Notes under the pieces: generated by a model | The model's database searches: none | What the model was told of the DNA's origin: nothing | The model's input: the letters and a program-made list of their open reading frames with translations, nothing else | Made by a program: the position numbers and the translations under genes | Shown here: one piece after another, positions 9,318 through 63,932 of the stretch | Position numbering within the stretch: the first letter of the stretch is position 1 | Layout of the letters: each line of letters opens with the position of its first letter | Source of the DNA: Acanthococcus lagerstroemiae | Lineage: Eukaryota > Arthropoda > Insecta > Hemiptera > Eriococcidae | Assembly (NCBI GenBank): GCA_031841125.1 | Contig: CM063106.1 | Location: forward strand, 46,980,162 to 47,044,161 | Direction of reading: 5' to 3' | DNA length: 64,000 nucleotides

Positions 9318-9509
9318 TCGTGAACCTAAGATTTTCTTTTGATTAAAAAGCGGAATTATTTTTTTTTTTTTGAGTGTGTCGGGATGGTGGCGATGTGCTC
9401 CACACCCAGATCCAGTTCGCGCCTACAGTAAATTTCGTTTTGCGGATAGTGCAGTTCGAGAAATACCCAAGTTTCGTTTTTTTTTACGCCACCTCGCCCG
9501 TTTTCATTT

Positions 9510-10436
9510 GTGCCAAAGGACTGGCAGTCCTGGAGAAGCCATTTTGAGCGCTATCGTGCAGCCTCTGGTTTGGCCAAAATGGTGGAGGTAGAGCAAGTCA
9601 ACGCACTTATCTACATCATGGGCATCAAGGCGGAGGAGATAAGCAAAGCCTTTGTCTACGCTAAAGCTGGCGACGAGAAGAAATACGACATCGTTCTGGG
9701 TACGTTTGATGCACATTTTGTTCCGCGCAAAAACGTAACCCATGAGCGCTATTTATTTAATACTCGTAACCAACGCACAGGTGAATCTGCGGAGGAGTAT
9801 ATTACTGCCCTGCATAAGTTGGCAGACACGTGCGAGTTTGAGAACTTTAAGGAGCAATTGATTCGCGACCGTATTGTTGTAGGTATAGCCAACCCCGAGT
9901 TGAGCAAACAAAAGGCTATAGATATCGTGCGTGCAAACGAAGACGTTGCGAACCAACAAGAAGCCCAACGGGCTGCTCAAACTGAAGCGGCCAAACAAAC
10001 CAGCGCAGCCCACATCGACCGAGTATATCAGCGCAACGGCGGTAACTCAGATCGAAAATTGGACTGTGGTCGTTGCGGTGAATCGCCTCACGGCCGCGAG
10101 ACCTGTCCAGCAAAGCGCGCAAAGTGTCACAAATGTCACAGGTATGGGCATTATTCGCGTATGTGCAGAGGGTCTGATAGCAAGCCGGTAAAGCCAAATC
10201 AGTGGTCACGGAAAGCTTCAAACAGACCTCAAAAGAAGCGTGTGAATGCTGTAGCTGAGCAATCGGACTCTTATTCGGGTTCCGAGTCCGGTGATGATGA
10301 TCGATTCTACATCGGCAGTGTGAGTAAGCTTGGTCCATGCGCAGATCCGTTCAACGTCAACATTGTAGTTGCTGATCAACAGCTCAAGTTTTGCATTGAT
10401 TTGACGCAGACGAGACAGTTATGCCGCCATCATTGA
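9510..10436 (+). CDS. gag: Gag of mag-like element (capsid plus two zinc knuckles)
   Basis: Gag packages the element RNA into cytoplasmic particles. The opening WQSWRSHFERYRAASGL, then the VNALIYIMG and GESAEEYITALHKLA blocks, fit the mag-type capsid. Near the C-terminus are two C-x2-C-x4-H-x4-C type knuckles (CGRCGESPHGRETC and CHKCHRYGHYSRMC, about residues 188-218). No ATG opens the frame at 9510 (it is GTG); the frame is open further upstream past a T homopolymer at 9477-9485, so the true start is lost or shifted. The frame then runs into the protease region and reaches a stop shortly after the catalytic aspartate. Confidence 0.85.
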   Translation: MPKDWQSWRSHFERYRAASGLAKMVEVEQVNALIYIMGIKAEEISKAFVYAKAGDEKKYDIVLGTFDAHFVPRKNVTHERYLFNTRNQRTGESAEEYITALHKLADTCEFENFKEQLIRDRIVVGIANPELSKQKAIDIVRANEDVANQQEAQRAAQTEAAKQTSAAHIDRVYQRNGGNSDRKLDCGRCGESPHGRETCPAKRAKCHKCHRYGHYSRMCRGSDSKPVKPNQWSRKASNRPQKKRVNAVAEQSDSYSGSESGDDDRFYIGSVSKLGPCADPFNVNIVVADQQLKFCIDLTQTRQLCRHH

Positions 10437-13400
10437 AACATCCCGATTTTCCATTACAGCGCCCGGACTCAATCCTAGAAGGTCCAGGAGGTAGTACACT
10501 GCAAGTTGAAGGCATGCAGATTCTTCCTACGTGCTACAGGGGTCGAACATCGTATCAAAAAGTGTATTTTGTCCATGGTCAACGTTGAGCGCTACTTGGT
10601 AAACCGCAATCAAGGCCTTTAGTCTGATTCGTCGAGTCAACATGGTCAAAGATGGTGAGGGAGTAGAAGCGTCTTTCAAGAAACTGTTCAAAGGGTTGGG
10701 CAGAATGCCAGGTAAATATGTTATCGTTTTGAAAGATGGCGCAAAACCCTTTGTTTTGACTATACCTCGGAAGATACCTTTTCCGTTACAGCCACGGGTT
10801 AAAGCCCTATTAAATAACATGGTGAAAGACGGTATCATTTCGCGAGTCTGCGAACCAACAGACTGGGTGGCACCGATGGTTATTGCGCTAAAAGCAGACG
10901 GTGGTATTCGCCTCTGTGTCGATCTTTCACGGCTCAATGCAAGCGTGAAACGAGGTCATCACCCCATCCCAGCTGTAGAGGAGACCCTGGCTAAAATCGC
11001 AGGTGGTTGCCTTTTTTCAAAATTGGATGCGAATGCAGGTTTCCACCAGGTGCTGTTAGCAGAGGAGTCCCGGCTGCTTACTACTTTCATCACTCCATGG
11101 GGACGATTTTGCTTCAATCGTTTGCCTTTTGGAATTACCAGCGCTCCGGAATATTTCCAAGCACTCATGACAGAAATGCTTGAAGGGTGTTGTAATGTGG
11201 TCTGTCACATGGACGACATTCTAGTGTGGGGCCAGGATCAGGAAGAGCATGACAAATGCCTGAAGGCTGTGCTAGAGCGTATTCAAGATTCAGGGATGAC
11301 GCTTAATAAGGAAAAGTGTGTTTTCCGAGCATGGAGAATCAAATTCCTGGGCCACTATGTCGAAGGAGGCCAGGTTCATGCCGACCCCGAGAAAACTAAA
11401 GCGATACGTGATTTATCAGCGCCAACATCAAAGAAGGAGCTCCAGTCTGTTATCGGTAGTGTGAATTTCTTAGCCCGTCACATACCAGACAGAGCCACTC
11501 TCCTCGCACCACTCTACGATCTTTTGAAGTCTGATCGGGAGTTCGTATGGGACAGTGCCCAGAAATGTGCTTTTGAACAGTTAAAAAAAACTGCTGGAGA
11601 GTCCGGAGGTCCGCGCAGTCTACGATGTAAATCGTCCAACCACAATTTCATGCGACGCTTCATCGTACGGAATTAGAGCAGTCCTTCTGCAGAAGAATGC
11701 AGATGGCAACCAGAGGCCCGTCGCGTATGTCTCCCGAACTCTTACCAGCAGTGAGAAAAATTTTGCCCAAATAGAAAAGGAGGCACTTGCCATCTCTTGG
11801 GCATGCAACCAGCTTCAAAATTTTCTTATAGGCAAGGAATTCGTTATTGAAACGGACCACAAGCCACTTGTGTCGATTCTAACCACAAAATTCCTCGATG
11901 ATCTAACACCCCGGTTACTGCGTCTTCGCATGAAACTTCAGCGTTTTCAGTACTCTGTCATTCACACACCTGGCAAGAACCTCGTCGTTGCTGACCTTCT
12001 GTCACGCAAACCAGTGTCACTTGCTCCAAAAGATGATGAGAATATGGCTGAAGAGTTGTCCTACGCTACAATCAAAACCGTCGAGATGCTACCAGCATCG
12101 TCGTCCATGTTGCAGCGAATTAAAGAGGCGCAATCTAAAGACGTTATTGGTCAACGTTTGCGCTTGTTCATTGAGAAAGGGTGGCCTAAGTCAACAAGTG
12201 AAACTCCGGAAAATCTAATCCCGTATCGCCGTCATCAATCAGCACTACATCTTTCACGTGACCTCATTATATTCCGTGACCGCGTGTGGATTCCCTCATC
12301 GCTGCGCCAATCCATTCTGGAGAAAGTCCATGCATCACACTTTGGCGTTACTAAGACGTGTAAGCTTGCCCGTACGTCGGTGTGGTGGCCCAATGATATA
12401 GCAAAGGTTGTCGCAAACTGTACCAGTTGCGCAGAAACCAGAGTAAATCGTAGCGAGCCACTCATTCCAACATCGCTCCCCGAGAGACCGTGGTTGAAAC
12501 TAGGAGTTGATCTACTCAAAGAGGAGGGAAAGTGGTACATTGTAGTCATCAACTACTACTCAAAGTATCTCGAGTTAGCGCACCTTCCAAAGCTTGACAG
12601 CAAAACGGTAATAAATTGTTTAGCAGCGATTTTTGCACAGTTTGGTATTCCCAAGGAGATTTTCACCGACAATGGGACTCAACTGGTCTCCCAAGAGATG
12701 AAGGAGTTTGCGCAAGATTACGATTTCAGGATCACCACGAGATCACCAGCCTACCCCCAATCAAACGGCCTCGCGGAAGCAGCCGTGAAAATAGTAAAAA
12801 AGATCCTGCGAGCTAAGTCACCATCGCTTGCGCTTCTACATTATCGTGCATCGCCAACATCTACGGGTTATTCACCAGCCCAATTACTTTTCAGCCGAAA
12901 CATTCGAACAACTATTCCTTTGGTAAACCTGGACTGGAAAAAGCTGTCACCTAAGCACATAGCTGAGAGCGACAAGTTGCGTCAAGATCACATGAAGCGC
13001 ACCTACGATCGCGCTAAAGGTGCTCGAGTTCTACCACCCTTAGTACCAGGCGATCGAGTCTACGTCGAAGACGCCGACCAGCAAGGCACAGTCGCGATAA
13101 AACGTGAGGAACCACGATCCTACAGTGTGCGCCTAGATGATGGAACGGAACTACGCAGAAACCGGAAGTCGCTACATCAACTTCCAACGCCAATCAAGCA
13201 AGAACCCGGGCCTACTTCTGGAACTCCAACAGTATCTCCGGAACCTATTGGGCAACGGTCCAAGAGTGCGCACCGTCATCAAGATACACCAATAGCGAGA
13301 CTAAGGCAGTCAGTTTCGGCACCGAATTCGCCCGTTTCTTTGCCAAAACGCTACAGTCGCCGTGGGACACCACCGCCCGATCGTCGTCAAAGTGGACACC

Positions 13401-13468
13401 CCCTCAAACAGCCCCGTCAGAGAGGTTACGATCTTCGCGCTCGGGCTCAGGTGAACTATAAGGAGTAA
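10390..13468 (+). pseudogene. pol: Broken pol of mag-like element (protease, RT, RNase H, integrase)
   Basis: Protease: the D-T-G triad near 10400 is destroyed; after FCID the frame shifts and only the following MPPS...DFPLQ segment survives. RT: open at 10642-11676, with PMVIALKADGGIRLCVDLS, RLPFGITSAPEYFQ and HMDDIL (near 11210). Within an 8-A run at 11583-11590 the frame shifts by one base. RNase H and integrase continue open to 13468 with CDASSYG, IEKEALAI and TDHKPL, then the HHCC zinc domain (HASHFG...CTSCAE), and DDE residues in VDLLKEE, FTDNGTQ and NGLAEAAVK. A basic, Pro/Ser-rich tail ends the protein. Stop TAA comes 17 bp before the 3' LTR. Two or more frame breaks make it non-functional as read; the A-run break could be an assembly error. 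Confidence 0.88.
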
Positions 13469-24889: not shown

Positions 24890-25845
24890 ACGCGGCTATA
24901 GGAGACTTCTCGTCTGGGTCAACCTAACCTCCAGGCCCAAAAACCAGACCACAGAAGGATAGGGGAGATGGCGGGGACAATAAACATGTGTGGTTTGCTA
25001 ATGTCTCAAAGAATGACCAAGGTGCAAAAATCGGAACCACGAATGCAAAAGGCGCTGACAACTATTCAATGGCACTGGGTGAGGGCGTCACTATCTTCCA
25101 AGCAGCAGTAATGGCGATCACGGTGGCCATTGACAGAAGTCAGCAGAAGGGCCTCGCTAATAAGCTGATCTATATCTGTACAGAGAGTCAAACAGCCATA
25201 AATGCACTATCGGCACACCAAACTACATCCTTGGGTGTGGCGGAATGCATTAACAAACTATACACCCTTGCTCAGGAGAACCGTGTCATCATACTATGGA
25301 CGCCGGAGCACTGCGGCGTAAGAGGGAGCATGATCGCGGATAGGCTAATGAAGGAGGGCATAAAAAAGGAACTCGTAACACCCAGGCCGTATCTTCCCAT
25401 AGCATACAGCGTCATAAAATCTAAGGTGAAAGCTTGGATAAGTAAGCAGATAGAAATGCACTGGCGGATGACTAGTGGCATGAAAGTCGGGAAAACACTG
25501 ATAGAGAACGCCCCCGGTAAGTACGCCGAGTTCCTACAAGGGCTCGGCAGAAAACATGCAAAGCTCATGGTCGGATGACTAACTGGCCATGGGGCTACTA
25601 AACACACATTCACGTCATATGTCAGTGTCCAGCAATAACGGGGACAAAACGCTAAGTACTGGAACTGAAATATCCAGTACCCAGTAAAGTTAAAAAGATA
25701 GAACTCAGTAAAATTCTCACATTGGCTGCAAAAGTAGGGCTATTGAGCTGATTCTTAACAGCAACTTGAGGACAGGTGCAATGGACTACAAAGTCTGAGC
25801 ATTCGACGCACACAGCGCCACCTCACACAAAGAAGAAAAGTTTCG
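24890..25845 (+). mobile_element. Second copy of the RNase H non-LTR element (3' fragment)
   Basis: It aligns with 8180-9100 plus 13689-13900: CTTCTCGTCTGGGTCAACC at the left, shared AAAGTCTGAGCA at the right. Relative to the first copy it has a deletion of about 120 bp near 24990, a small deletion before the CCHC finger, and it is not split by an LTR element. It is useful as the empty-site reference for the nested insertion at 9101-13683. Confidence 0.8.
24988..25578 (+). pseudogene. RNase H fragment of non-LTR ORF2 (196-aa open frame, catalytic residues altered)
   Basis: Open without stops over 196 codons but lacking RT and an ATG-based start. RNase H motifs are visible: SMALGEG, QAAVMAITVAID, IYICTESQTAINAL, ILWTPEHCG. 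Compared with the copy at 8400-9000, the conserved Glu in QAEVMAI is Ala, and the usual TDS is TES. A catalytically competent RNase H is therefore unlikely. The frame ends near 25578 in the region of the missing CCHC finger. Confidence 0.7.
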
Positions 25846-50928: not shown

Positions 50929-50932
50929 AGAT

Positions 50933-52363
50933 TGAGGCATGGGAAACTGGGAACAACGCTCCCAGTCCAGCACTCATATCTGAGAAGCAGCATAGCTGAG
51001 TAACGGAGGAACGTCTCCAGCAAAAATCAAAAAACAGGGATGCCATTCAATTAAGAAAATGTAATAACAAATAAAAAATAAGCATAACATAACAAAAGGC
51101 GAGGGGGACATAACAATGATAAAGAACAAAATTATTAATAACGGAGAACAGGGAGCTCAAACACAAACCAGACGCGAAAGCAACAATTACTAGGGATGTG
51201 AAACTTCGGGTGCTGACCACAGCAAGAAATGAATTTAAAATGGTAACAAATGAAGACGAATCAAATTGACTAGGAACATAGATTTACTCCCGGTACGAAA
51301 CCAATGAAAAGGGGAGGGAGATAAGGTGGAATAAGAGTTAACCCCATGGCACAAGGCCTAATTAATGGTCCACCTTATCCCGGCAAATACAATTAAATAA
51401 ATACAAATTAGCGAAAATAAGTGTGGTCAGCAACATTCAGCTAATCCCAAAACCCACAATACACGATCTAAGGGTAAACAATTGTAAATGTATCGTTACC
51501 TTTGAGATATGAACCGACGAGAAGAGCTCTCCCCGTGTTGGATATTTTCCGTGAGAAACTGAAACACATGTATGATAATATAGGAAGAAACATTAATACC
51601 CCCTTTCCCATTTTTGAGAAGCCATAAAAAATAACGAAATTTGACGTTTTTCCTTTTAAACGTAGTGGCAGAGAACAATAACTAAAAACGCGAACACTGT
51701 GGCCCATCGACAAAACTTAGGTAACCAGGATCTTTCCGGACTTGAACGGCAGCATCATCAGCGTCATATGAACGGCTCTCGGCAGTATGAGCACTTCGAC
51801 TATCCAGAGAGTAACTTAGGTGTGACAAAACGTAGGCAAAACATCCATTGGTTAATGGCTGGAGGCCCCTCGGTGGGTCCCTTCGGAGCATCACTGCGGC
51901 ATCCAGTGCGGTGTTTTACTCGTCCAAGACGATCTTAACAGCGGCGATGAATATGATTCTGTGGTGTCTCGGCATGGCCCGGCCCTCCCCTGATGTCCGT
52001 GATCACGGCTTACATATCGACAACGATCAGATCATTAATGCGGTAGCGAACATAACGAACTACACGTTAAAAGTACGAATTACGGTATTTGAGTTTTGAT
52101 AACTTCGGATTTACGACATAAGGAATGTACGTCGAACTTCAAACTATGAAAAATCGCTAAACATACGCGAACATCTCTATCGTACAAAGGGCATCGGCCA
52201 GCTAACAACGGCTCGTTCCGCTCGAAGGTAGATCGACCAGACGCATCGACACCGCTGGCAAACCGATAACCCCACCTACGCCATGATCGGTGGTAGGTGC
52301 AATTATCGTTTTCGCACGTTCGATGCGTATCGGGAAACTACCTTCGAGCATTTCCATGCATCA
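50933..52363 (-). repeat. 3' LTR of dual-RNase-H element
   Basis: 1431 bp; on the plus strand it reads TGAGGCATGGG...CCATGCATCA. Pol stops about 60 bp before it. The sense sequence just upstream is CAGGGGGCATT, a weak purine tract. Short frames inside it are identical in both LTRs and are not genes. Confidence 0.93.
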
Positions 52364-52423
52364 AATGCCCCCTGGGGGATCACTCCTGTAAGGGGAGATC
52401 CACCAGCGAATGCATGGACGCAG

Positions 52424-55400
52424 CTAACTGGAGCCTACTGGAGAACTACCGGTGCCACGGCGCACAAGTCGAAGTTGCCTAACGTTCACGACAAAGGGGA
52501 CGGCATTAGGTTCAAGGCTCACGATGAGATAGGCGTTCGTGCACCACTTTTGTACGACCAGATATTCGCCATCGAACTTTTTATGGAACTTTTTGGAGAT
52601 GCCATGATACGCCTGAGAGAGAGCATGCACCCTCAGCGTTACGACATCTCCTGGTAGGAGTCTTGTAAATTCCGAGACAGGACGAGTGTTATTGTCGTGT
52701 TCGAGCCTACGCATCTTTTGTAGCTTAACAGTGGCGATATAACTTTGGATGGACTTTGTAAGGGTACTTTCGGGAGCTAAGCATTCGTTGAGGCATTCGA
52801 GATTTTCGATGTACGATTTAAAAACTTCGCCCACCGCCCAATCAACTTCAAGGTTACCGAAGTCCGCCGTATGTCCATTTGTGTGGACCAAGCGGACAGA
52901 TCCGGCGGGTAAGGCCTCAATATAATGTACCAGAATTTTTAGCCACTTAACATTACTGTAAGATTCTAGCCTAGGATTGTCCATCGATAGGGAGCCAGAA
53001 TCAAATAGGTCGACAATATAACCCGAATCCGTATGGACAACTATTTTTCTAGCCCTGCCAGCTAAACTAATACGCAGAGCTTGAATTACTGCGATTACCT
53101 CCGCCTGGTTATTTGTAACCTTCGGCTCGATGATTTTCGACTGGTTAGCAGGACTGTTAGTGGAAAACCATACCGCGTATGCCGACAAAGCCTCCTTACA
53201 CCCATTCCTAAGTGCACCACCGTCTGTCCATACATGAACGGCGCCATCCCTGTCGTAGGTGAAGTCGATAGTTTTCTCTTTCATTGGCTGCGATAGATCA
53301 TTAACTGATGTCTGTAACTCCATGTTTTTAATGGTGGAAGCGAGTTTATACTTTGGATGCGGAATGCGATATTCAAAGTCCCGTCCAACAGGATTGTCAA
53401 CCCGGACCCCGAGGACCTCTAGAGGGGAATATCCATGGGACTTAGCAGCGGAGTTTATTGAAAATTGTACTTCTTTAATGTAGCTGAACCAACGGGTGTG
53501 GTCGTCATGTGGACTATCGGGGTCATTAATTATCAAGCGTAGTTTCTCGGAGATGACACGCATCTGACGTTCTACCGGATTCGCGTTGGCGTTGTAGGGA
53601 GTTATATACCGATGCGAAATACGCATTTTTTCTAAGAACTCATTAAACTCATTGCTTCGGAATTGGGTTGCATTATCCGACAAAAGAGTATTGATGTGAT
53701 AACCAAGGACCTGACACTCATCTAAGATCTTTTTTATAGCATAAACGAAACTTGAAGCACGCATTGATTTCATGCCACGAATTGACACGTGACCCGAAAA
53801 GACATCTTGGGCAACGAAAAGAGCGACAATGCCGTTGGCCCTAATGGGGATGGGACCGTATATATCGCATGACACTAACTTAAATGGGAAGTCGGCGGTC
53901 ACATTGCACGGTCGAGGTTTATTTGATGCATTTGGTGACTTGTTCTGCTTGCAAGGCAGGCACTGCGATATGATGCGCCGCACTTGGCCATCCAGATTAG
54001 GGTAATAAAATGAACGGCTAATCAGGACAGTTGTCTTATTGACGCCAGGATGGCCATAAAATTGATGATAAAAATTTATTAGGTGGGTAATTATGGCATT
54101 TGGGATTATTAATAAGTTGCCTGCAGGGGTGACGCGGTATAATACTTCATCTTGAACCTCATATTGTTCCCGAAAAGCTCCCAATATGTGACTATTAGAT
54201 TGCAATTTATTTCGAATCTTGGAGCAGAAGGGGTCTCCCTGTTGATGTAACTTGACATCGGCGAGGGATTGGCGTAAAAGTTCCGAAGCCAGGCCATCCG
54301 AATGACCGCCGACCTGCTGTATTACGGCTGAGCATAAGGTACAGCACTCGGCCTTGAAGCCAATTGGCGAGTCTTCGTCGTAGTCAGCTGCAACCTCGTT
54401 GTCAGGCGACTTTACTGCAAAGGTTGACGTCAATTTTTCCTCCAGTTGTAGCAAACTAAGCACAGCTGAGCTTTGTAGCGATTTTACCAATTGTTCGAAT
54501 CTAGTGTCAGCCTCTGCGGTACAATTTATGTTGAATGAGTTGATGAATAAATACATTTTGGCTATCATCGCATTTACAGGCACTAAGTCAGACATTTTCT
54601 TTAGCAGTGAGGCGAAACGATATTCAAGTATGATGGTGTTTTCAGTTAGCAACACTTGATAACGCTTTAGCGTATAGTATACAGCATAATAATTTTTATA
54701 ATCTGACGATTTAGACATTGCAGTTTGGGGAAGTCGGTGGTTAACCATGGTTATAATATTAGATTCTCCATTAACATGTTGAAAAATACAACCCACCACG
54801 AACGTATCACTCGCAGCCACCTTTATAAGGAAAGGTTGATCTTTCACGGGGAAGGACAGGGGCTGCCGTTGCGCGAACCTTTCTCTTATTTGCTCAAAAC
54901 ATTCCCTAAGGACGGGAGTTACTATGTATGGCGGATTTTTACTTAATAGATTCATGTACGGTTGCACTAGTTCTACGTAGTTAGGGATGAAGCGAGAGAA
55001 CCAATTGGTGAAGCCCAGCAGCTCCTGTATAGGTTTCTTGTTTGTGAATGTTGGCTTATCTAAATATTTTGCTTGAAAGTTGTCAAAAAACCTCAGCTTG
55101 TCTACATCATGAATGACGAATTGTTTTGAAAAAATGTGACCCAGGAATTTTATGCTCGGGTGAAAAAGTATTGTTTTCTTCAACGACAGAGTCATCCCAG
55201 ACTGTAGCACATTACGACATAACTTCGATAGTTCGGCAAGGTGGGAATCAAATTCCATAGTTTGAATTTTGACGTCGTCGACATACACCTTGACGGTTCT
55301 TTTGTCGACATCGTCGGTGTATATCGCCTCCCTAGCGGCTCGATTAAACAGGGAAGGGGAAACGGAAGTGCCAAAAGGCAAACGTGTATATTGATAGCAG

Positions 55401-56989
55401 GTTCCATCAAATTCGAATCCTAGGAATTTTTTAGCGTCATCATTCAGTCCGATTTGTAGGAAACCGTTTGAGAAATCTGTAGATGAGTAAAGAGTGCACT
55501 CCTCCTGCTCGAAAATGACGTCCTCAATTTTCGGTGGATTGTGGTGTTGCGGACGCAGAATGCGATTAAGTGAACTAGAGTCAAGGCACAGACGAACGGA
55601 CCCATCCTTTTTCGTGACTGCTACCAGTGGATGAATGAACCTCGTATTCGATTGTTCAATGATTCCAGCTTTCAGCAAACAAGTGATTTCTTGCCGGACT
55701 TTGACACGCATCTTAATTGGCACAGGATATGATTTAGGAATCCAACGCTCGGTCGGCGACACCTCAAATGACACCTTATATCGATTATACAACCCAAGTT
55801 GGGAACGAAAGACAGGAATAAAATGAGCTAACTCGGCGAATGCAACTTTGCCCTGCTCGGGAGAGATATACTTATGCAACACGGCGTACTCAATTTTCTT
55901 TTCCAACAGACCCAGTAGTTCACGCGTCTCTTCGCGGGATATGCGGTGACTCGTATCAGGATCCATCTGCCCTTCGAGAGCAGAGACCTGAGTGAGCGCA
56001 TCCGGCATTATGTTCTGAATGGAGATAGACTTTGAGTTACTCTCTTGGTATTCGATTGTAACAGGGTGAGGCGCTGTGTAAAGATTAAACTCACGCGCGA
56101 AGTTTCCCGCTCGGTGAGTCCCAACCATAATATTATTTTTATAATTAAAATTCAAATTAAACCGTAAGATGACGTCAGAACCAAGGATGCATCCTTCCGA
56201 CATACCCGGTAAGATAACAAAGGGATGGACCTCAGACATATCTGGCACTATAGGCACGGGTAATATTACATATTCTCTAGCCGCAGTTACGCCGGCTGCG
56301 AGTTTTAATTTGAGAGGGAAATCGAGTTGACCACGCATTAAATTGTGGCCTTTATCGGCGAGATAATTCGCCACATCGTCGGCGATGAAAGAAATCGATG
56401 CCCCTGTGTCGATCAACGCGTGCATTTTGATCCCGAATGGACTAAGACACACACGGGGAATGACACTGGACAACTGTTTCTCAACGCCAACGGTTGTGGA
56501 TGGCACATCGATTGTAAAAAGATCAGCCGTTTTGAATACTTCTTCATCTTCAATGGGTTCATTCCCTAGATTAGGACCGGTTATTGATTTTAATTTACCT
56601 AATATCGATCGAATTATGTCGTTTGACAGAAAGATTCGGTTCCGGTGACCGAGGCGGTACGCATTCGAGAATAATTGCCGGTTAATTTTTGGAACATTGT
56701 TCACATAAGTGAATACCTTATCATGTGGGTTTATCTTTGTGAAAATTTTACTATCGACGTCGATTAATGTAATGCGAGAAGCGAATGCCCGACTCAACTC
56801 GTTTATCGAGTCTAAGATCACGTTGTGGAATGACCATCTACTGATATCGCTGTAATTAACTGCTGGATAAGGCGGAGGCGTTAACAGAACAATATGTTTT
56901 GTGCCTCTTTCTAAGACATGCTCTAAAATCCTTTGCAGGCAGGTAGCGAAGTCGTCGCCGACTTCATAGTAGGATGGACCGTATAACAT
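52424..56989 (-). CDS. pol: Pol of dual-RNase-H element (1521 codons)
   Basis: Residues ~1-140: second half of an SGNH/GDSL-like domain (HIVLLTPPPYP, then HRNRIFLS). Protease: ALIDTGAS, D194-T195-G196. RT: about 400-680, YVDD at 569-572. First RNase H: about 705-805, but catalytic positions are A725 (VAAS for TDAS), N766 and Y790 (EYR for TDH). Integrase zinc domain: H975, H980, C1010, C1013. Core: D1042, D1105, E1140 (D-D-35-E). Second RNase H: about 1250-1390 with D1256 (WTDGG), E1297 (NNQAE), D1321 (HTDSG), H1373 and D1383, all present. After it, about 1435-1510, comes an integrase C-terminal SH3-like module (LLPGDVVTLRV...FDGEYLVV). The second RNase H therefore lies inside the integrase region. 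The frame is intact over 1521 codons; its start is joined to the upstream frame by a further shift near 57010. Confidence 0.92.
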   Translation of the reverse strand: MLYGPSYYEVGDDFATCLQRILEHVLERGTKHIVLLTPPPYPAVNYSDISRWSFHNVILDSINELSRAFASRITLIDVDSKIFTKINPHDKVFTYVNNVPKINRQLFSNAYRLGHRNRIFLSNDIIRSILGKLKSITGPNLGNEPIEDEEVFKTADLFTIDVPSTTVGVEKQLSSVIPRVCLSPFGIKMHALIDTGASISFIADDVANYLADKGHNLMRGQLDFPLKLKLAAGVTAAREYVILPVPIVPDMSEVHPFVILPGMSEGCILGSDVILRFNLNFNYKNNIMVGTHRAGNFAREFNLYTAPHPVTIEYQESNSKSISIQNIMPDALTQVSALEGQMDPDTSHRISREETRELLGLLEKKIEYAVLHKYISPEQGKVAFAELAHFIPVFRSQLGLYNRYKVSFEVSPTERWIPKSYPVPIKMRVKVRQEITCLLKAGIIEQSNTRFIHPLVAVTKKDGSVRLCLDSSSLNRILRPQHHNPPKIEDVIFEQEECTLYSSTDFSNGFLQIGLNDDAKKFLGFEFDGTCYQYTRLPFGTSVSPSLFNRAAREAIYTDDVDKRTVKVYVDDVKIQTMEFDSHLAELSKLCRNVLQSGMTLSLKKTILFHPSIKFLGHIFSKQFVIHDVDKLRFFDNFQAKYLDKPTFTNKKPIQELLGFTNWFSRFIPNYVELVQPYMNLLSKNPPYIVTPVLRECFEQIRERFAQRQPLSFPVKDQPFLIKVAASDTFVVGCIFQHVNGESNIITMVNHRLPQTAMSKSSDYKNYYAVYYTLKRYQVLLTENTIILEYRFASLLKKMSDLVPVNAMIAKMYLFINSFNINCTAEADTRFEQLVKSLQSSAVLSLLQLEEKLTSTFAVKSPDNEVAADYDEDSPIGFKAECCTLCSAVIQQVGGHSDGLASELLRQSLADVKLHQQGDPFCSKIRNKLQSNSHILGAFREQYEVQDEVLYRVTPAGNLLIIPNAIITHLINFYHQFYGHPGVNKTTVLISRSFYYPNLDGQVRRIISQCLPCKQNKSPNASNKPRPCNVTADFPFKLVSCDIYGPIPIRANGIVALFVAQDVFSGHVSIRGMKSMRASSFVYAIKKILDECQVLGYHINTLLSDNATQFRSNEFNEFLEKMRISHRYITPYNANANPVERQMRVISEKLRLIINDPDSPHDDHTRWFSYIKEVQFSINSAAKSHGYSPLEVLGVRVDNPVGRDFEYRIPHPKYKLASTIKNMELQTSVNDLSQPMKEKTIDFTYDRDGAVHVWTDGGALRNGCKEALSAYAVWFSTNSPANQSKIIEPKVTNNQAEVIAVIQALRISLAGRARKIVVHTDSGYIVDLFDSGSLSMDNPRLESYSNVKWLKILVHYIEALPAGSVRLVHTNGHTADFGNLEVDWAVGEVFKSYIENLECLNECLAPESTLTKSIQSYIATVKLQKMRRLEHDNNTRPVSEFTRLLPGDVVTLRVHALSQAYHGISKKFHKKFDGEYLVVQKWCTNAYLIVSLEPNAVPFVVNVRQLRLVRRGTGSSPVGSS

Positions 56990-57381
56990 GTCTGTAAAAC
57001 CACTGACAGAAATAAATGTTCATGAAATTGATTACATTTGATAACAGCATTCGCCAGAAATTTTGTTGTAATATGCTCGAAAGCTAGATGATGGCGTGCC
57101 GAAGCCTGCGGGGTTTTCCGAATGAACCGAAAGTTACAATATTTTGCGATTTGAAAAGCAATTGTATCACCGACGAGTTGAAACATGTTATGGACACGGC
57201 GCATGCGAGAAATATCGAATGATGGTTTCGTTTCAGAAGGTGGGCCTCGACTTTCCGGGGGTGAGTTCCATCGGGATTTAACGAGGGGGAGACGGTCGAC
57301 GGCTGCCCGATCTCTCAGTGCGACCGAGACCCGTTTCCCGATGAATGGTTGTGATAATTTGGCCGCTGGAAACCACGATTG
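56923..57381 (-). CDS. N-terminal Pol segment: start of SGNH-like domain, in the -1 frame to gag
   Basis: The frame is open from 57381 to the stop at 56923-56925 and begins inside the end of gag. From the internal Met at 57204 it reads MRRVHNMFQLVGDTIAFQIA, where GDT sits at the position of the catalytic GDS block of SGNH hydrolases, Ser being replaced by Thr. The matching downstream blocks (SGFTDMLYG; TPPPYP) are in the frame of the long Pol, one base earlier, so the domain is split by a frame break near 57005-57015 in a T-rich stretch. Entry from gag is probably by -1 frameshifting at 57333-57339. Confidence 0.7.
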   Translation of the reverse strand, partial: QSWFPAAKLSQPFIGKRVSVALRDRAAVDRLPLVKSRWNSPPESRGPPSETKPSFDISRMRRVHNMFQLVGDTIAFQIAKYCNFRFIRKTPQASARHHLAFEHITTKFLANAVIKCNQFHEHLFLSVVLQTCYTVHPTMKSATTSLPACKGF

Positions 57382-58792
57382 TCAGAGGTATGAGGAATGG
57401 GGAACCAGTCCCGTCCGTCATGACCACGACTCTCGTAACTAGCGTCTTGGTTACCACTTGTTGGGGGAGTGCCCCGGTTGGAGGAGAAACACGTTCCATT
57501 TCAACCGAATCATCATGGAAAATTTGGCTTACTTGGCTTGCATTGCCGGTTTGATTTCCACGAAGGCGATTGTTAAAATTAGACGGATGAGAATTGGGTC
57601 TATTATGAGTCTGGTGATTTTCTGACTGACTGCCATACTGACGATTATCACGGAAGTGACTTCTAGTATTACTGAAATTGTTAGCGCCGTTGCGCATTGG
57701 GTTACTGTGATTCGACTGATAGGATTGATTTTTTTCTGGTTTTAATATATTAAGTTCCTTGAAATGGGTTACAACAGCGACAAGGCGATCCAGGAGCTCG
57801 TTGATATCGTCCTCGAAACGGTCCGCCAGAGCACGACGTACCTCGAATGGCAATTTATTTTTGATTTCCTTTATGGCTTGTTTAGGTGGTATGAAAAACT
57901 CGGTCAAAGCCGTTAGCTTAGTATACCAATTAAGGATAACGCCGCGTGCCTTCGACAAGTCGAACACATCCAACCTAAGACGCCGAAATTCTTCGTAAGT
58001 TGCCATCTGGGCACTCGGGTTCCAAAACGTGCCGAGGAACGAATCACGATACTCCCGGTATGACGCGAACGAGACGGACAAGTGGAGATCCCAATTCGGA
58101 TTTGGCACACGCACTCGGTTTCTTAGCCATAGAATTTTATGAGTCTCTGGTGGCTGATAAACTTCGAACCATGTTTCTAGCTCTTCTAGGAATCGTACGG
58201 GCATAAGAGTACCATCGTCACGAAATACAGGCAGGCAGTCAGGGACTGTGAAAGTTTGCTGGTAACGATTCCCTGGATTCTGATGGCAACAAGCCGAAGC
58301 TTGGGTTAACTCTGGGCGGTCACACCTACGAGTCGACCAAAGGTGATCATTATTTTGTGTAGCAGAAGTAGGGACTGACTGATGTCTAGGCACCTCTTTT
58401 TGATTTTGGTGAGCATGTGGCTCATTGACTACCGAACATACGATATCAGACACGAATTTTCTTAATCCCTCCGGGGTGAATGTAATCGAACCATCCGGGG
58501 GTGTTTGCCTGGGACCCGAGTCACCTGCCCCGTTACCCACGGCATCACTCTCACCTGCCCCATGGACTTCGTCACCACAATTTTCCGGATTCTCGGTGAC
58601 CATACTGTCACCAGCCTCATTGTTCGGTAGATTAGCCCCTGGATTACCGTTGACATGGGAGGGCGACAGAGACAGACGGTTGAGACCAGCCATCACTTGT
58701 TCGACGCGCTGATCCACGCTGTCTCGCTCATTATAATAGCCCAAAGGTGGCCTATTGTCCCGTGTACAGTATTGATGGCTACGTGAACCCAT
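57278..58792 (-). CDS. gag: Gag of dual-RNase-H element
   Basis: 504 codons from ATG. N-terminal ~130 residues are low-complexity; the capsid-like core (about 190-340) has PVRFLEELETWFEVYQ, FASYREYRDSFLGTFWNP, ILNWYTKLTAL and IKEIKNKLPFEVRRAL. It is followed by an Asn/Ser/Arg/His-rich tail with no CCHC knuckle. From about 57440-57500 onward a neighbouring frame is the better gag tail: it is RG/NH-rich (DWFPIPHTSDNRGFQRPN) and stops at 57315-57317, while the annotated frame turns Val/Thr-rich. A single-base loss near 57440-57500, or an assembly error there, would explain it. Confidence 0.85.
   Translation of the reverse strand: MGSRSHQYCTRDNRPPLGYYNERDSVDQRVEQVMAGLNRLSLSPSHVNGNPGANLPNNEAGDSMVTENPENCGDEVHGAGESDAVGNGAGDSGPRQTPPDGSITFTPEGLRKFVSDIVCSVVNEPHAHQNQKEVPRHQSVPTSATQNNDHLWSTRRCDRPELTQASACCHQNPGNRYQQTFTVPDCLPVFRDDGTLMPVRFLEELETWFEVYQPPETHKILWLRNRVRVPNPNWDLHLSVSFASYREYRDSFLGTFWNPSAQMATYEEFRRLRLDVFDLSKARGVILNWYTKLTALTEFFIPPKQAIKEIKNKLPFEVRRALADRFEDDINELLDRLVAVVTHFKELNILKPEKNQSYQSNHSNPMRNGANNFSNTRSHFRDNRQYGSQSENHQTHNRPNSHPSNFNNRLRGNQTGNASQVSQIFHDDSVEMERVSPPTGALPQQVVTKTLVTRVVVMTDGTGSPFLIPLTIVVSSGQIITTIHRETGLGRTERSGSRRPSPPR
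57333..57339 (-). promoter_or_regulatory. Candidate -1 ribosomal frameshift site GGGAAAC
   Basis: On the minus strand the heptamer is in the correct register, G GGA AAC, relative to the RG-rich gag-tail frame that stops 18 nt later. A -1 slip enters the frame that leads into Pol. Downstream lies a GC-rich potential stem (CGGTCG pairing with CGACCG). GGGAAAC is a known retroviral slippery heptamer. Confidence 0.65.
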
Positions 58793-59614
58793 ATCAACAC
58801 CGGAGATGTCGCAAATTGAACTATAAAACGAAGATCCTACGAATAGCCACAGACCTCACTACAGTGGAGCACGAGACTAACAATAAAGGTATTATTAAAA
58901 GATAGCTTATTAAAACTAAATAACCAAATAAGAAAATAACAATTAAATAAAGCAAATTACACAACGAGGGGTGAAGGCCAAGACAGGAGCGAGAACACCA
59001 CAGTACATTAAAAAGGGAAGAAAAACTAAATTTTGCTTGGAATTTTCGTTCTCTCTTTCGGAAAGCTCATTTGACCACTGGGTTTGAAACGATATCAAAG
59101 TACCAGCAGGCAAACCCAAATTACCAATCTAGCAGGGAATAGTTAGGTCCTGGCCAGGTTTCCCTCGCCCTCCGGAGATGGTAACACGCAAAGGGTCCGA
59201 TCTCCTGGCCGGCTCAAACGGCACACAGACATGCAGAAGGTAGCGGGGACAACTAATCTTCCACAGAGGTGTCAGAACCTAACCGCGCCAGTGGAGTAGA
59301 AAGGTAATTACTCCGGGAAAAAACCCAAAGGTTGATTGGGAAAGAAAATGAAATTTAGCATCAATAGATGTTAGAAAAATAGTGGAGATTTTGTAACTAG
59401 TTCGGGACCAACTAGCTACTGGGAGTCTTATCGACTGAGCTTTATATCACAAGAGAGAGAACGGCCCCAATAGCCCAAAGCTAAATTCTCCAGGGACAGT
59501 AAGAGCCAACCGCATCCAGTTGGTTATAATGTTTCAAACTGCCCCAGAGAATTAGCGCTAAAAGGATTCCAAAGGTGTGGGAGACGTTCCCTCACCAGGC
59601 AGATGCCAGAAATA
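58793..59614 (-). other. 5' leader of dual-RNase-H element
   Basis: About 820 nt between the 5' LTR and the gag ATG, with no long frame. No canonical tRNA-complementary PBS starting TGG directly at the LTR edge; the nearest candidate begins six nt in (TGGCATCTGCC). Confidence 0.6.
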
Positions 59615-61045
59615 TGAGGCATGGGAAACTGGGAACAACGCTCCCAGTCCAGCACTCATATCTGAGAAGCAGCATAGCTGAGTAACGGAGGAACGTCTCC
59701 AGCAAAAATCAAAAAACAGGGATGCCATTCAATTAAGAAAATGTAATAACAAATAAAAAATAAGCATAACATAACAAAAGGCGAGGGGGACATAACAATG
59801 ATAAAGAACAAAATTATTAATAACGGAGAACAGGGAGCTCAAACACAAACCAGACGCGAAAGCAACAATTACTAGGGATGTGAAACTTCGGGTGCTGACC
59901 ACAGCAAGAAATGAATTTAAAATGGTAACAAATGAAGACGAATCAAATTGACTAGGAACATAGATTTACTCCCGGTACGAAACCAATGAAAAGGGGAGGG
60001 AGATAAGGTGGAATAAGAGTTAACCCCATGGCACAAGGCCTAATTAATGGTCCACCTTATCCCGGCAAATACAATTAAATAAATACAAATTAGCGAAAAT
60101 AAGTGTGGTCAGCAACATTCAGCTAATCCCAAAACCCACAATACACGATCTAAGGGTAAACAATTGTAAATGTATCGTTACCTTTGAGATATGAACCGAC
60201 GAGAAGAGCTCTCCCCGTGTTGGATATTTTCCGTGAGAAACTGAAACACATGTATGATAATATAGGAAGAAACATTAATACCCCCTTTCCCATTTTTGAG
60301 AAGCCATAAAAAATAACGAAATTTGACGTTTTTCCTTTTAAACGTAGTGGCAGAGAACAATAACTAAAAACGCGAACACTGTGGCCCATCGACAAAACTT
60401 AGGTAACCAGGATCTTTCCGGACTTGAACGGCAGCATCATCAGCGTCATATGAACGGCTCTCGGCAGTATGAGCACTTCGACTATCCAGAGAGTAACTTA
60501 GGTGTGACAAAACGTAGGCAAAACATCCATTGGTTAATGGCTGGAGGCCCCTCGGTGGGTCCCTTCGGAGCATCACTGCGGCATCCAGTGCGGTGTTTTA
60601 CTCGTCCAAGACGATCTTAACAGCGGCGATGAATATGATTCTGTGGTGTCTCGGCATGGCCCGGCCCTCCCCTGATGTCCGTGATCACGGCTTACATATC
60701 GACAACGATCAGATCATTAATGCGGTAGCGAACATAACGAACTACACGTTAAAAGTACGAATTACGGTATTTGAGTTTTGATAACTTCGGATTTACGACA
60801 TAAGGAATGTACGTCGAACTTCAAACTATGAAAAATCGCTAAACATACGCGAACATCTCTATCGTACAAAGGGCATCGGCCAGCTAACAACGGCTCGTTC
60901 CGCTCGAAGGTAGTTCGACCAGACGCATCGACACCGCTGGCAAACCGATAACCCCACCTACGCCATGATCGGTGGTAGGTGCAATTATCGTTTTCGCACG
61001 TTCGATGCGTATCGGGAAACTACCTTCGAGCATTTCCATGCATCA
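59615..61045 (-). repeat. 5' LTR of dual-RNase-H element
   Basis: 1431 bp, same length as the copy at 50933-52363 and collinear with an 8682-bp offset. One substitution was spotted by eye. Confidence 0.93.
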
Positions 61046-61049
61046 AGAT

Positions 61050-61708
61050 CATTTCTTTGTTGATCAGTAACTATCCAAAAACCAATGAGGTAATTTGTCC
61101 TTTATTGTTTGAACAAAAATACCTACACAGTAAACACACACACCTGCTTGCTGTAATAAACTGCAAGGATCACTAAAACAAGGTACCAAATGTGATACAA
61201 GAAAGATGTGACTTGATTTTAATACGTAATAAATGGTATATTCCGTAATACAAAACTTAAATATTAAAGTTAACATGTTTTTCAACTTATTAGTATATTT
61301 ATAATAACTTATTATTAATTATCAGTTGTTTTTATCTTTACAGCGCTAGAACAGAAGGATATAATAGTTAACTATAGAACAGATATTGCCGATTAATTAA
61401 CTAGAGGGTATATAACATTAAATATAATTTATTTCAGATTATATCCTAATTAGTATAAGAGGTATGATCATCACTATCATTTCTTATTAACTAAAACTCC
61501 TGGAGCTTTAGTAGCTTGCGGTGCTTGCTGGCTCGTCACCGCTGATCTGCCTTCTTCCAGTGAACTACCCGACCTGTACAAAAAATACCGTCATTCCAGC
61601 GACCTCATTCCTCTAGCAATAAAAACCACCCTTGTTCTCCTCATACAACTCGATTCCGTCCATCCGATACAGGCAAAAAAAAAAAAAATGTAAAAGAAAC
61701 ACAAAAAT
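61050..61708. other. Flanking DNA between two LTR elements, possible terminal exon on minus strand
   Basis: Mostly AT-rich. At about 61488-61576 the minus strand has a TTTTTTGTACAG acceptor-like site followed by a ~30-codon frame (SSLEEGRSAVTSQQAPQ...) ending TGA. This could be a last exon of a host gene interrupted by these insertions, or chance. Confidence 0.25.
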
Positions 61709-61896
61709 GTAAAGACATTGTTAGCTTCGCCGGTTCGCTCTCTCGATGTTGCGCGATTCCGAAGCCAGTTTACCGTATACCGCCGATTCGTAAATACAGA
61801 AAACGTTTTCATCGCTCCGACTTCTTTTTTCATTTCTTTCGGACTTTTCAATGGTATCGACTCGACGCGGGGACTATACCGACAGCCCCCCGCAAG

Positions 61897-61914
61897 TGGT
61901 GACCTCGACGTGAT
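61897..61914 (+). other. Primer binding site, tRNA-Trp type
   Basis: TGGTGACCTCGACGTGAT lies two bases after the likely LTR end. It differs by one base from the TGGTGACCCCGACGTGAT used by CsRn1-type elements (known from the family). Confidence 0.8.
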
Positions 61915-61999
61915 TGAAAATATCGAATATAATAACTGCAACGCGATCGCGAATTCGTTCAATAACAGTGCCGGTACCGCGATTACTAACATTAGCAGC

Positions 62000-62856
62000 A
62001 TGACACCGCAACCGTTTCTACAGTGTGGGCCCTTTTCGAAAAAGGACCCAGCAAGTTGGTTTCGCCGGCAATTAGAGGCACAGTTCACACTAAATGGGAT
62101 CCTGGATGAACAAATCCGGTATATGTGGGTTCAAGCCAGGCTAAATCCATCAATTCAAACAGACTTCAAGGACTTCTTCGACAATCCACCGGCGGAAAAC
62201 CAATACACGGCTTTGAAAACTCGAATTTTTCAGGAATATTCTGACTCGGCAGAAAAAATGCACAGGTGCTACTTCAAGGGGTGAGTTTGGGCGATAGACG
62301 TCCTTCACAAATGCTGCGGGAAATGCGCAAATTAGCCAATGGCAGTGTGAAAGATGATTTTCTGCGGACCTTGTTCATGCAGCGTCTACCCCCGCAGATC
62401 GGGCTCGCACTTTCGGTCATCAACGAACCACTCGAGCAATTGGCGCAAACAGCCGACCGACACATCGACTTCTATAACAGTATGAAGATGTATAGTGCTT
62501 CCCAAAATTTCGCCTGCTCACCGTTTCCGATCATGCCAGACCACCCGTTCCCGACCATCAGCGCAGTGAACCGTAAACCGACAGACCAGCTCCTCCTTGA
62601 AAAAATGGACCAACTACTATCGGCTATAACCGATATCGGTAAGAAGTTAGACGATAAACGCGAACCACGATCGAATCATCGCTCTCGGTCGCCTACTAAT
62701 CCAAATTTTGGAAATACGCGCGATCGTTCGCCTTCTCGCGGTGTCGTACCGGAAGACATAAACTTATGCTATTATCATTATACTTTTGGGGCAAAGGCCA
62801 TGAAGTGTAAAGTCATGGACAGTGGCGCCCCATGCACGTGGGCGGGAAACAAGTAA
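62000..62856 (+). pseudogene. gag: Gag of CsRn1-like element, frame broken once
   Basis: ATG at 62000 opens MTPQPFLQCGPFSKKDPASW; this frame ends at 62284. Homology continues one frame over (62266-62856: RRPSQMLREMRKLANG, LFMQRLPPQIGLALS), so a single-base shift occurred near the A run at 62253-62258. The C-terminal motif CYYHYTFGAKAMKC...PC is the unusual CHCC-type finger of this clade rather than CCHC. The second frame stops with TAA at 62854-62856, three bases after the slippery heptamer and its following codon. Confidence 0.8.
62844..62850 (+). promoter_or_regulatory. -1 frameshift site GGGAAAC at the gag end
   Basis: The gag frame reads GCG GGA AAC AAG TAA. The heptamer G GGA AAC is in correct register; slipping by -1 gives GGG AAA CAA GTA, which is exactly the open protease-RT frame. 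This fits gag-pol expression by -1 frameshifting. Confidence 0.8.
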
Positions 62857-63932
62857 TTGCCGTAGTGAGGGCGGCCACCCCGACAACCGAATCGTGCCGC
62901 CAATTCGCACATGAACGTAGCTTAAACAAATTATTCCTAATTGACACCGGTGCATTCGCCTCACTTATGCCTCCGTCGAATAACTCAAGTACATTAACGC
63001 AGCTCGATCATTGTTTGTATGCCGCGAATGGCACTCCAATCCTTGTTTACGGCGATCGACTCATCACCTTAAATTTGGGGCTTCGTCGCCCTTTTTGTTG
63101 GAAATTCATCATCGCCGACGTACCCCATCCAATTTTAGGCGCTGATTTTTTCAACCATTTTGGCCTTATACTCAACATAAAAAACCGAAAACTAGTCGAC
63201 CCTCTCACCGACATTTACATCCCTACTGTACGGGAAAACACGTCGTATACTGGCATCAGTGCATTGCCGCCGGTTGACACTTGGTATAATGCACTATTGT
63301 CCCAGTTTCCGAACATTGTTCAATCGCCCAACCTTACGTCATTACCGCCCGTCAAACACTCCGTGTTACATTACATACACACGACCGGCCCCCCTATCTC
63401 ATCTCGACCCCGGCGCCTGTCGCCTTTACAATTGCAAGTAGCCAAAGCAGAATTCGAAACGCTCATTGAATTGGGCATTTGTCGCCCCTCTTCCAGCCCT
63501 TGGGCCAGTCCCCTCAGAATGGCCCCTAAGGCGGACGGTTCTTGGCGATGCTGCGGGGATTATAGACGAGTAAACGCGGCCACAGTCTCTGATTCGTATC
63601 CACTCCCTCATATTCATGATTTCGCCCTATCCCTACATGGGAAAAAGTTCTTTTCAAAAATCGACTTGGTAAAGGCGTACCATCAGATTCCTGTAAATCC
63701 TGAAGACATCCCGAAAACAGCAATCACGACCCCCTTTGGATTGTTTGAGTATACTCGTTTACCATTTGGCCTCTGTAACGCTTCTCAGACATTTCAAAGG
63801 TTCATCAACGACGTCCTTGCACCGTTTCCTTTCGCTTATGCTTATTTAGATGATGTTCTGTTAGCAAGTGCATCCCTTGAGGAATCCAAAGAACATCTTA
63901 CTCTTATCCTCAGACGTTTTTTCCGAGTTTAA
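62845..63932 (+). pseudogene. pol: Protease and RT of CsRn1-like element, broken near the end
   Basis: Protease [16 protein letters not shown] (D-T-G intact, near 62940) and [63 protein letters not shown] and the catalytic [10 protein letters not shown] (near 63840). The frame stops at 63932 after a T run (63917-63922); homology (INASKS, PSIEFLGFEL) continues in another frame to the window end. RNase H and integrase lie outside. Confidence 0.85.

Follow-up and report, generated by a model that had tools for sequence, protein, structure and literature searches.

An intact RNase H domain placed behind the integrase core in a Ty3/gypsy-type LTR retrotransposon lineage of the insect Acanthococcus lagerstroemiae

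LTR elements with two RNase H domains, the native one of them dead, are known from retroviruses, lokiretroviruses and Odin, as set out in the available text of PMC9040795. In Odin, the lokiretroviruses and the Retroviridae, the native RNase H is described as a degenerate tether and the second as Fungi/Metazoa-type, lying downstream of the native domain in a Pol ordered PR, RT, RH, IN, and the available sections of these accounts also describe Odin as lacking env (PMC9040795, PMC10508981). For plant Tat elements, the accessible part of one account gives five arrangements (structures 1–5), in which an archaeal-type extra RNase H accompanies a degenerate native domain whatever its position, with none reported in the integrase; in structures 3 and 4 an ORF of its own encodes the extra domain, and here too the native RNase H is degenerate (PMC10508981). 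The oomycete Ty3/gypsy elements Archon and Chronos, in the portion of the description open to us, combine a degenerate native RNase H with an intact, archaeal-type second one, which in Archon adjoins the native domain, and Chronos has its dual RNase H plus a chromodomain adjoining the integrase; the same text takes an active-site His to mark the Fungi/Metazoa type and an Arg the archaeal type (PMC5348765). Among env-less LTR elements of animals, the Troyka superfamily is described, again in the text available, as having no tether, an ordinary domain order, CG...CG ends and 3-bp target site duplications (TSDs) (PMC12440569).

The element described here resembles Odin and its relatives in pairing a native RNase H that looks like a degenerate tether with a second one closest to the Fungi/Metazoa type, and resembles Odin in having no env. 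With the Tat structures it shares an extra RNase H beside a degenerate native one, with Archon and Chronos the same combination in a Ty3/gypsy-type element, and with Troyka its env-less state in an animal. Whereas the second RNase H of Odin and retroviruses lies between the tether and the integrase, here it follows the integrase core and precedes the integrase C-terminal domain (CTD); unlike the extra domains of Tat, Archon and Chronos it is not of the archaeal type, and the LTR ends (TG...CA) and 4-bp TSD differ from those of Troyka. A live RNase H within or after the integrase is not mentioned in the text, as distinct from the figures, of the available accounts of Odin, retroviruses, Tat, Archon and Chronos. 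The initial annotation of this DNA had offered the element as a candidate for an undescribed system. Its domain order is unmatched in the literature searched, but the dual RNase H as a phenomenon was already known; as far as these partial sources go, it is the position of the live RNase H that is new. This difference in placement, along with an RNase H 1 of Ty3/gypsy type, points toward a possibly independent capture, separate from that in Odin and the retroviruses.

The element occupies positions 50933–61045 of the window (the whole stretch of 64,000 nucleotides that was analysed), on the minus strand, and is 10,113 bp long (Table 1). Its 5′ and 3′ LTRs differ at 1 of 1431 sites, and because they are nearly identical we consider the window copy to be young. 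The ATCT duplication falls within the 4–6 bp that, together with TG...CA ends, characterize Ty3/gypsy elements, and three other copies are flanked by GAAT, ATTT and AAAT. Since pol ends 60 bp before the 3′ LTR, there is no space for env downstream of it. The Pol frame of the window copy is broken in its N-terminal domain, upstream of the protease, and other copies have longer, unbroken frames that run through this domain. A piecewise scan of Pol against Pfam gave the order protease, reverse transcriptase (RT), RNase H 1, integrase HHCC domain, DD35E core, RNase H 2 and integrase CTD, which is the PR-RT-RNH-INT order of Ty3/gypsy with an extra RNase H behind the integrase core. Judged by this order and by its LTR ends and TSD, the element is an env-less LTR retrotransposon of Ty3/gypsy type. 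The scan, together with the alignments described below, agreed with the coordinates (52790..54862) and the named residues of the initial annotation, which had seen here an LTR element with a dead first RNase H and a second, intact one inside the integrase region.

Table 1. Features of the element, listed in the sense direction; positions are those of the window unless a copy is named.
Feature	Position	Strand	Details
TSD ATCT (sense), 5′ side	61046..61049	(-)	
5′ LTR	59615..61045	(-)	1431 bp, TG...CA in sense; matches 3′ LTR except at one site
ORF in gag position	57278..58792	(-)	504 aa; no Pfam match
pol ORF	52424..56989	(-)	1521 aa; stop to stop 52424–57019
Conserved N-terminal Pol domain, possibly SGNH/OSK-like	56585..57201	(-)	Split over two frames; limits approximate, by counting
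N-terminal domain in other copies	L039:286-903, L044:220-837, L048:208-822, L051:1-618, L054:60-671		
Aspartic protease	56168..56428	(-)	Pol 188–274; PF13975 1.7e-7
Reverse transcriptase (YVDD)	55130..55615	(-)	Pol 459–620; PF00078 4.8e-20
RNase H 1, active site lost	54536..54910	(-)	Pol 694–818; RT_RNaseH_2 (PF17919) 1.2e-13 and RT_RNaseH (PF17917) 2.1e-5, scanned as Pol 691–860
Integrase HHCC zinc-binding domain	53936..54106	(-)	Pol 962–1018; Integrase_H2C2 (PF17921) 3.4e-13, scanned as Pol 861–1245
Integrase core	53570..53887	(-)	DD35E = D1042, D1105, E1140; rve (PF00665) 2e-10, scanned as Pol 861–1245
RNase H 2, intact	52829..53242	(-)	Pol 1250–1387; D1256, E1297, D1321, H1373, D1383; RNase_H (PF00075) 7.2e-15, 55.8 bits (cut-off 25.8), scanned as Pol 1235–1410
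Integrase CTD (SH3/GPY-F-like)	52469..52651	(-)	Pol 1447–1507; SH3_Tf2-1 (PF24626), weak, 3e-4, under its cut-off, scanned as Pol 1400–1521
3′ LTR	50933..52363	(-)	1431 bp; single mismatch at 52232
TSD ATCT (sense), 3′ side	50929..50932	(-)	

Searching the species' own 658-Mb assembly with RNase H 2 returned 49 matches. Those that we used, to which the labels A to F apply, represent at least six subfamilies that are 39–53% identical to one another in this domain. Subfamily A includes the window copy and is 96–100% identical within RNase H 2; B is about 50% identical to A, while C, D, E and F are 39–44% identical to it, E and F being represented by broken copies. Integrase_H2C2, rve and RNase_H were found in one frame in four of five further pieces (one B, one D and two C), the fifth (F) being a fragment whose frame begins at RNase H 2, and four subfamilies have the full domain order in one ORF. 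The order has thus been kept among deeply diverged members of a single genome. An alignment of five rows (A, B, D and two C) spanning integrase, RNase H 2 and CTD showed 39–51% identity to the window row, with the HHCC, DDE and RNase H 2 catalytic residues invariant. With RT as the query, 28 of the best 150 of 1205 genome candidates were 47–100% identical and the next 33%; among the matches listed, the dual-RNase H group is well apart from other gypsy elements.

We aligned RNase H 1 with three intact gypsy controls, namely two Pol proteins of gypsy domain order (P0001 and P0002) together with the window's other gypsy element. The loss of the acidic catalytic residues, which had been read at A725, N766 and Y790, was borne out, although the third catalytic column in the window copy is the residue adjoining Y790. 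In subfamilies A, B, C, D and E in turn, the column of the first catalytic Asp holds A, E, S, T and A, and that of the Glu holds N, L, L, Y and Y, so that both are gone from all five subfamilies compared, with B carrying a Glu where the Asp would be; four of the five have also lost the second Asp, subfamily C having an Asp in that column. The losses thus differ in detail from one subfamily to another, and none keeps the full catalytic set. RNase H 1 is nevertheless 32–46% identical between subfamilies and still matches RT_RNaseH despite its lost active site, a pattern of conservation like that of a part retained for its shape.

The profile check that had been proposed for Pol residues 1240–1400 gave the match to PF00075 listed in Table 1, and the five residues said to be intact there (D1256 to D1383) are indeed invariant in all seven aligned RNase H 2 sequences, drawn from six subfamilies. 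It had also been asked whether the domain is archaeal or retroviral in type. Neither was its best match: the RNase H 2 profile scored highest, by a wide margin, with human RNase H1 (63.9 bits, 1.5e-16), against 39.8 bits for chain 3h08, 30.4 bits for chain 4e19, which we take to be an archaeal enzyme and which matched over positions 6–87 only (half of the domain), 27.5 bits for 1ril, about 27 bits and less for E. coli-type chains, 26.6 bits for the best retroviral chain and 25.5 bits for Rv2228c. The active-site position that holds Arg in archaeal-type domains is His in 7/7 sequences. In the prokaryote library NCBIfam, RNase HI models were best for three members (6.1e-8 to 1.2e-13, under cut-off), with RnaseHI_Halo as the second match. 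Three bacterial RNase HI sequences scored 37.3, 39.1 and 44.9 bits in a separate, small comparison into which nine sequences were entered, and which has no row for P0001 or for the longest ORF of L001, an ORF that need not be the symbiont's RNase HI gene. As a profile, RNase H 2 is nearest to eukaryotic RNase H1. L001 and L177 lie on a 1.5-Mb contig (C11) that looks bacterial, and the RNase HI of this contig is 88% identical to that of a Bacteroidetes endosymbiont of Geopemphigus sp., an aphid. Another contig (C326) has a COX1 match with 12 internal TGA codons, and 600 bases of it are open when translated with the invertebrate mitochondrial code; both contigs fit an insect host, probably a sap-feeding hemipteran.

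As to where RNase H 2 came from, we rejected both a duplication of RNase H 1 (1.4 bits) and the resident LINE family as donor (14.9 and 5.4 bits). Sixteen genome pieces were taken as possible sources, L079 being the one scored; by eye 15 of them are one LINE family, and the longest ORF of the remaining piece (L087) has no RNase H. An RNase H1 gene belonging to the host itself did not turn up. A weak RNase_H match elsewhere in the window (24928–25578; 4.7e-4, under cut-off) apparently belongs to the genome's many-copy LINE family. A single-sequence AlphaFold2 model of RNase H 2 and the CTD had a mean pLDDT of 31 and was left unused.

The distance from the catalytic Glu of the integrase to the GDxV motif of the CTD is 307–311 residues in five of five members of the family, compared with 122 (P0001), 99 (P0002) and 91 (the window's other gypsy) in ordinary elements, and from this difference we conclude that RNase H 2 is an insertion and not a C-terminal fusion. 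These distances and the order of the Pfam matches confirm its earlier placement between the integrase core and the CTD. The CTD itself was aligned by hhalign with that of P0001 at 80% probability and unconvincingly with the other two controls (3.6% and 1.5%); with the SH3_Tf2-1 match under its cut-off, which is the other evidence for a GPY/F module, this one fair match suggests an ordinary gypsy CTD. When the five-row alignment was compared with P0001 by hhalign, the match covered the integrase and ended before RNase H 2. In a protein search, the nearest proteins to the five-row alignment were P0001 and P0002, both of which have the ordinary gypsy order and no PF00075. No element with the order described here was found in protein and viral collections, searched with RNase H 2 plus CTD and with the five-row alignment and including viral contigs, though such an absence says little for collections without known coverage of animal genomes or Repbase.

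We think it probable that the RNase H step of reverse transcription is now carried out by a captured RNase H1-type domain lodged within the integrase, with RNase H 1 left as a tether. A eukaryotic RNase H1-type domain would have been captured between the DD35E core and the CTD of an env-less Ty3/gypsy-type lineage; from the integrase part of Pol, RNase H 2 would degrade the RNA template and make and remove primers, acting within a complex of RT and integrase or within their precursor, and RNase H 1 would give RT a structural tether comparable to the retroviral connection domain. RNase H 2 is suggested for this work because its active site is kept and that of RNase H 1 is lost, and an analogy is offered by plant Tat, where the available text has the native RNase H decaying wherever the extra one sits (PMC10508981). 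Among the points against a takeover, RNase H 2 is distant from the polymerase in sequence, so that it is not obvious how polymerase-coupled cuts would be made, and at catalytic positions of RNase H 1 subfamily C retains an Asp and subfamily B has a Glu.

RNase H 2 might instead serve integration, for instance with target-site RNA:DNA hybrids, or RNA left over at the cDNA ends, as its substrates. Its conserved place between core and CTD would suit such a role, but we regard this as unlikely, given that RNase H 1 is dead in 5/5 subfamilies and reverse transcription needs an RNase H, of which the host is a possible supplier. The element's protease might also excise RNase H 2 as a free enzyme, in which case its position in Pol would only secure expression and packaging. 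Tat structures 3 and 4, in which, according to the available text, the RNase H is encoded separately and the native domain is degenerate (PMC10508981), are in keeping with this idea; cleavage on both sides of the domain, however, would detach a conserved integrase CTD, and we consider it quite improbable.

Of the 49 genome matches, 14 lie in uninterrupted frames of 1075–1741 residues; with so many matches, some of them in long open frames, RNase H 2 is not a chance occurrence. The other 35 lie in frames of fewer than 1000 residues. For a pair of subfamily C copies (L008/L033), dN/dS was 0.111 in RNase H 2 (dS 0.615), 0.047 in the integrase core and 0.201 in the CTD; since no long ORF lies upstream of L033, it is an old copy, some of whose changes may be neutral. 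A closer C pair (L008/L038) gave 0.281, 0.098 and 0.324 for RNase H 2, core and CTD, from few changes (dS 0.02–0.04), and two between-subfamily pairs were saturated. Of these pairs, the first is the informative one, and it shows purifying selection on RNase H 2. That it is a functionless passenger or part of a chimeric gene, as the many fragmentary copies might suggest, is very hard to reconcile with this low dN/dS (0.11), with an active site kept in 7/7 sequences from six subfamilies and with the 14 long open frames.

It is conceivable, if doubtful, that an animal lineage independently moved its RNase H from RT into the integrase module. The activity that takes off the primers, and by doing so sets the cDNA ends, would then reside in the very enzyme acting on those ends, linking reverse transcription to integration within a single polypeptide and freeing RNase H from any fixed spacing to the polymerase. 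A dual RNase H whose first domain is dead has been discussed as marking the way from retrotransposons to retroviruses, and a live domain in the integrase separates two ideas about it, namely decay of the first domain from redundancy and decay owing to the new domain's place beside RT. It also raises the question of whether RNase H must adjoin the polymerase at all, and it makes a natural RNase H-integrase fusion available for testing.

Trees of RT and of RNase H 2 from six subfamilies both joined A and B with support and resolved little else; this agreement fits a single old capture followed by common descent, but is no proof of it. Two RT matches, at C8:48.42M and on C15, were considered as an ancestral state and rejected because they look truncated or interrupted; integrase and RNase H 2 are absent from the 2.0 kb and 1.3 kb, respectively, adjoining them. 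This genome yielded no sister element lacking RNase H 2, and therefore the order of capture and decay cannot be read from it.

LTRs were compared in ten further copies: six had complete or near-complete pairs that were 97.9–100% identical, three had ends 99.4–99.9% identical that reached the edge of the sequence compared, and one was without a resolved pair. The lineage has been active recently. Subfamily B LTRs (L065/L066 and L067/L068) contain an internal tandem repeat with 77-bp shifts. In subfamily D (L073/L074 and L075/L076) the similarity of the ends continues for more than 3.3 kb, as far as the piece reaches, which may reflect very long LTRs or copies lying inside longer duplications. 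A copy at C1:60932838-60942950 was rejected as a second insertion, since its flanks match those of the window copy (99.6% over 537 bp and 99.3% over about 750 bp), which indicates one insertion in a duplicated stretch; either two copies of the locus lie about 14 Mb from each other or the repetition belongs to the assembly.

Before the protease, five subfamilies have a conserved N-terminal Pol domain of about 205 residues (Table 1). One of five such domains matched Pfam OSK (6e-4) and GDSL (0.017), both under cut-off, which hints at an SGNH-hydrolase fold that has degenerated; no SGNH structure was among the three weak PDB matches. LTR elements of bdelloid rotifers are reported to carry GDSL genes as ORF3, in the available part of one account (PMC5408684). 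Elsewhere in the window, the gypsy element used as a control (10603–13468) has the ordinary order: one frame encodes RT, and an overlapping one encodes integrase and an intact RNase H 1. It is preceded by an ORF (9450–10436) with no Pfam match. A further retroelement fragment lies on the plus strand at 61694–63932 (DUF7041 2e-15, RT 1.2e-23), about 650 bp from the 5′ LTR.
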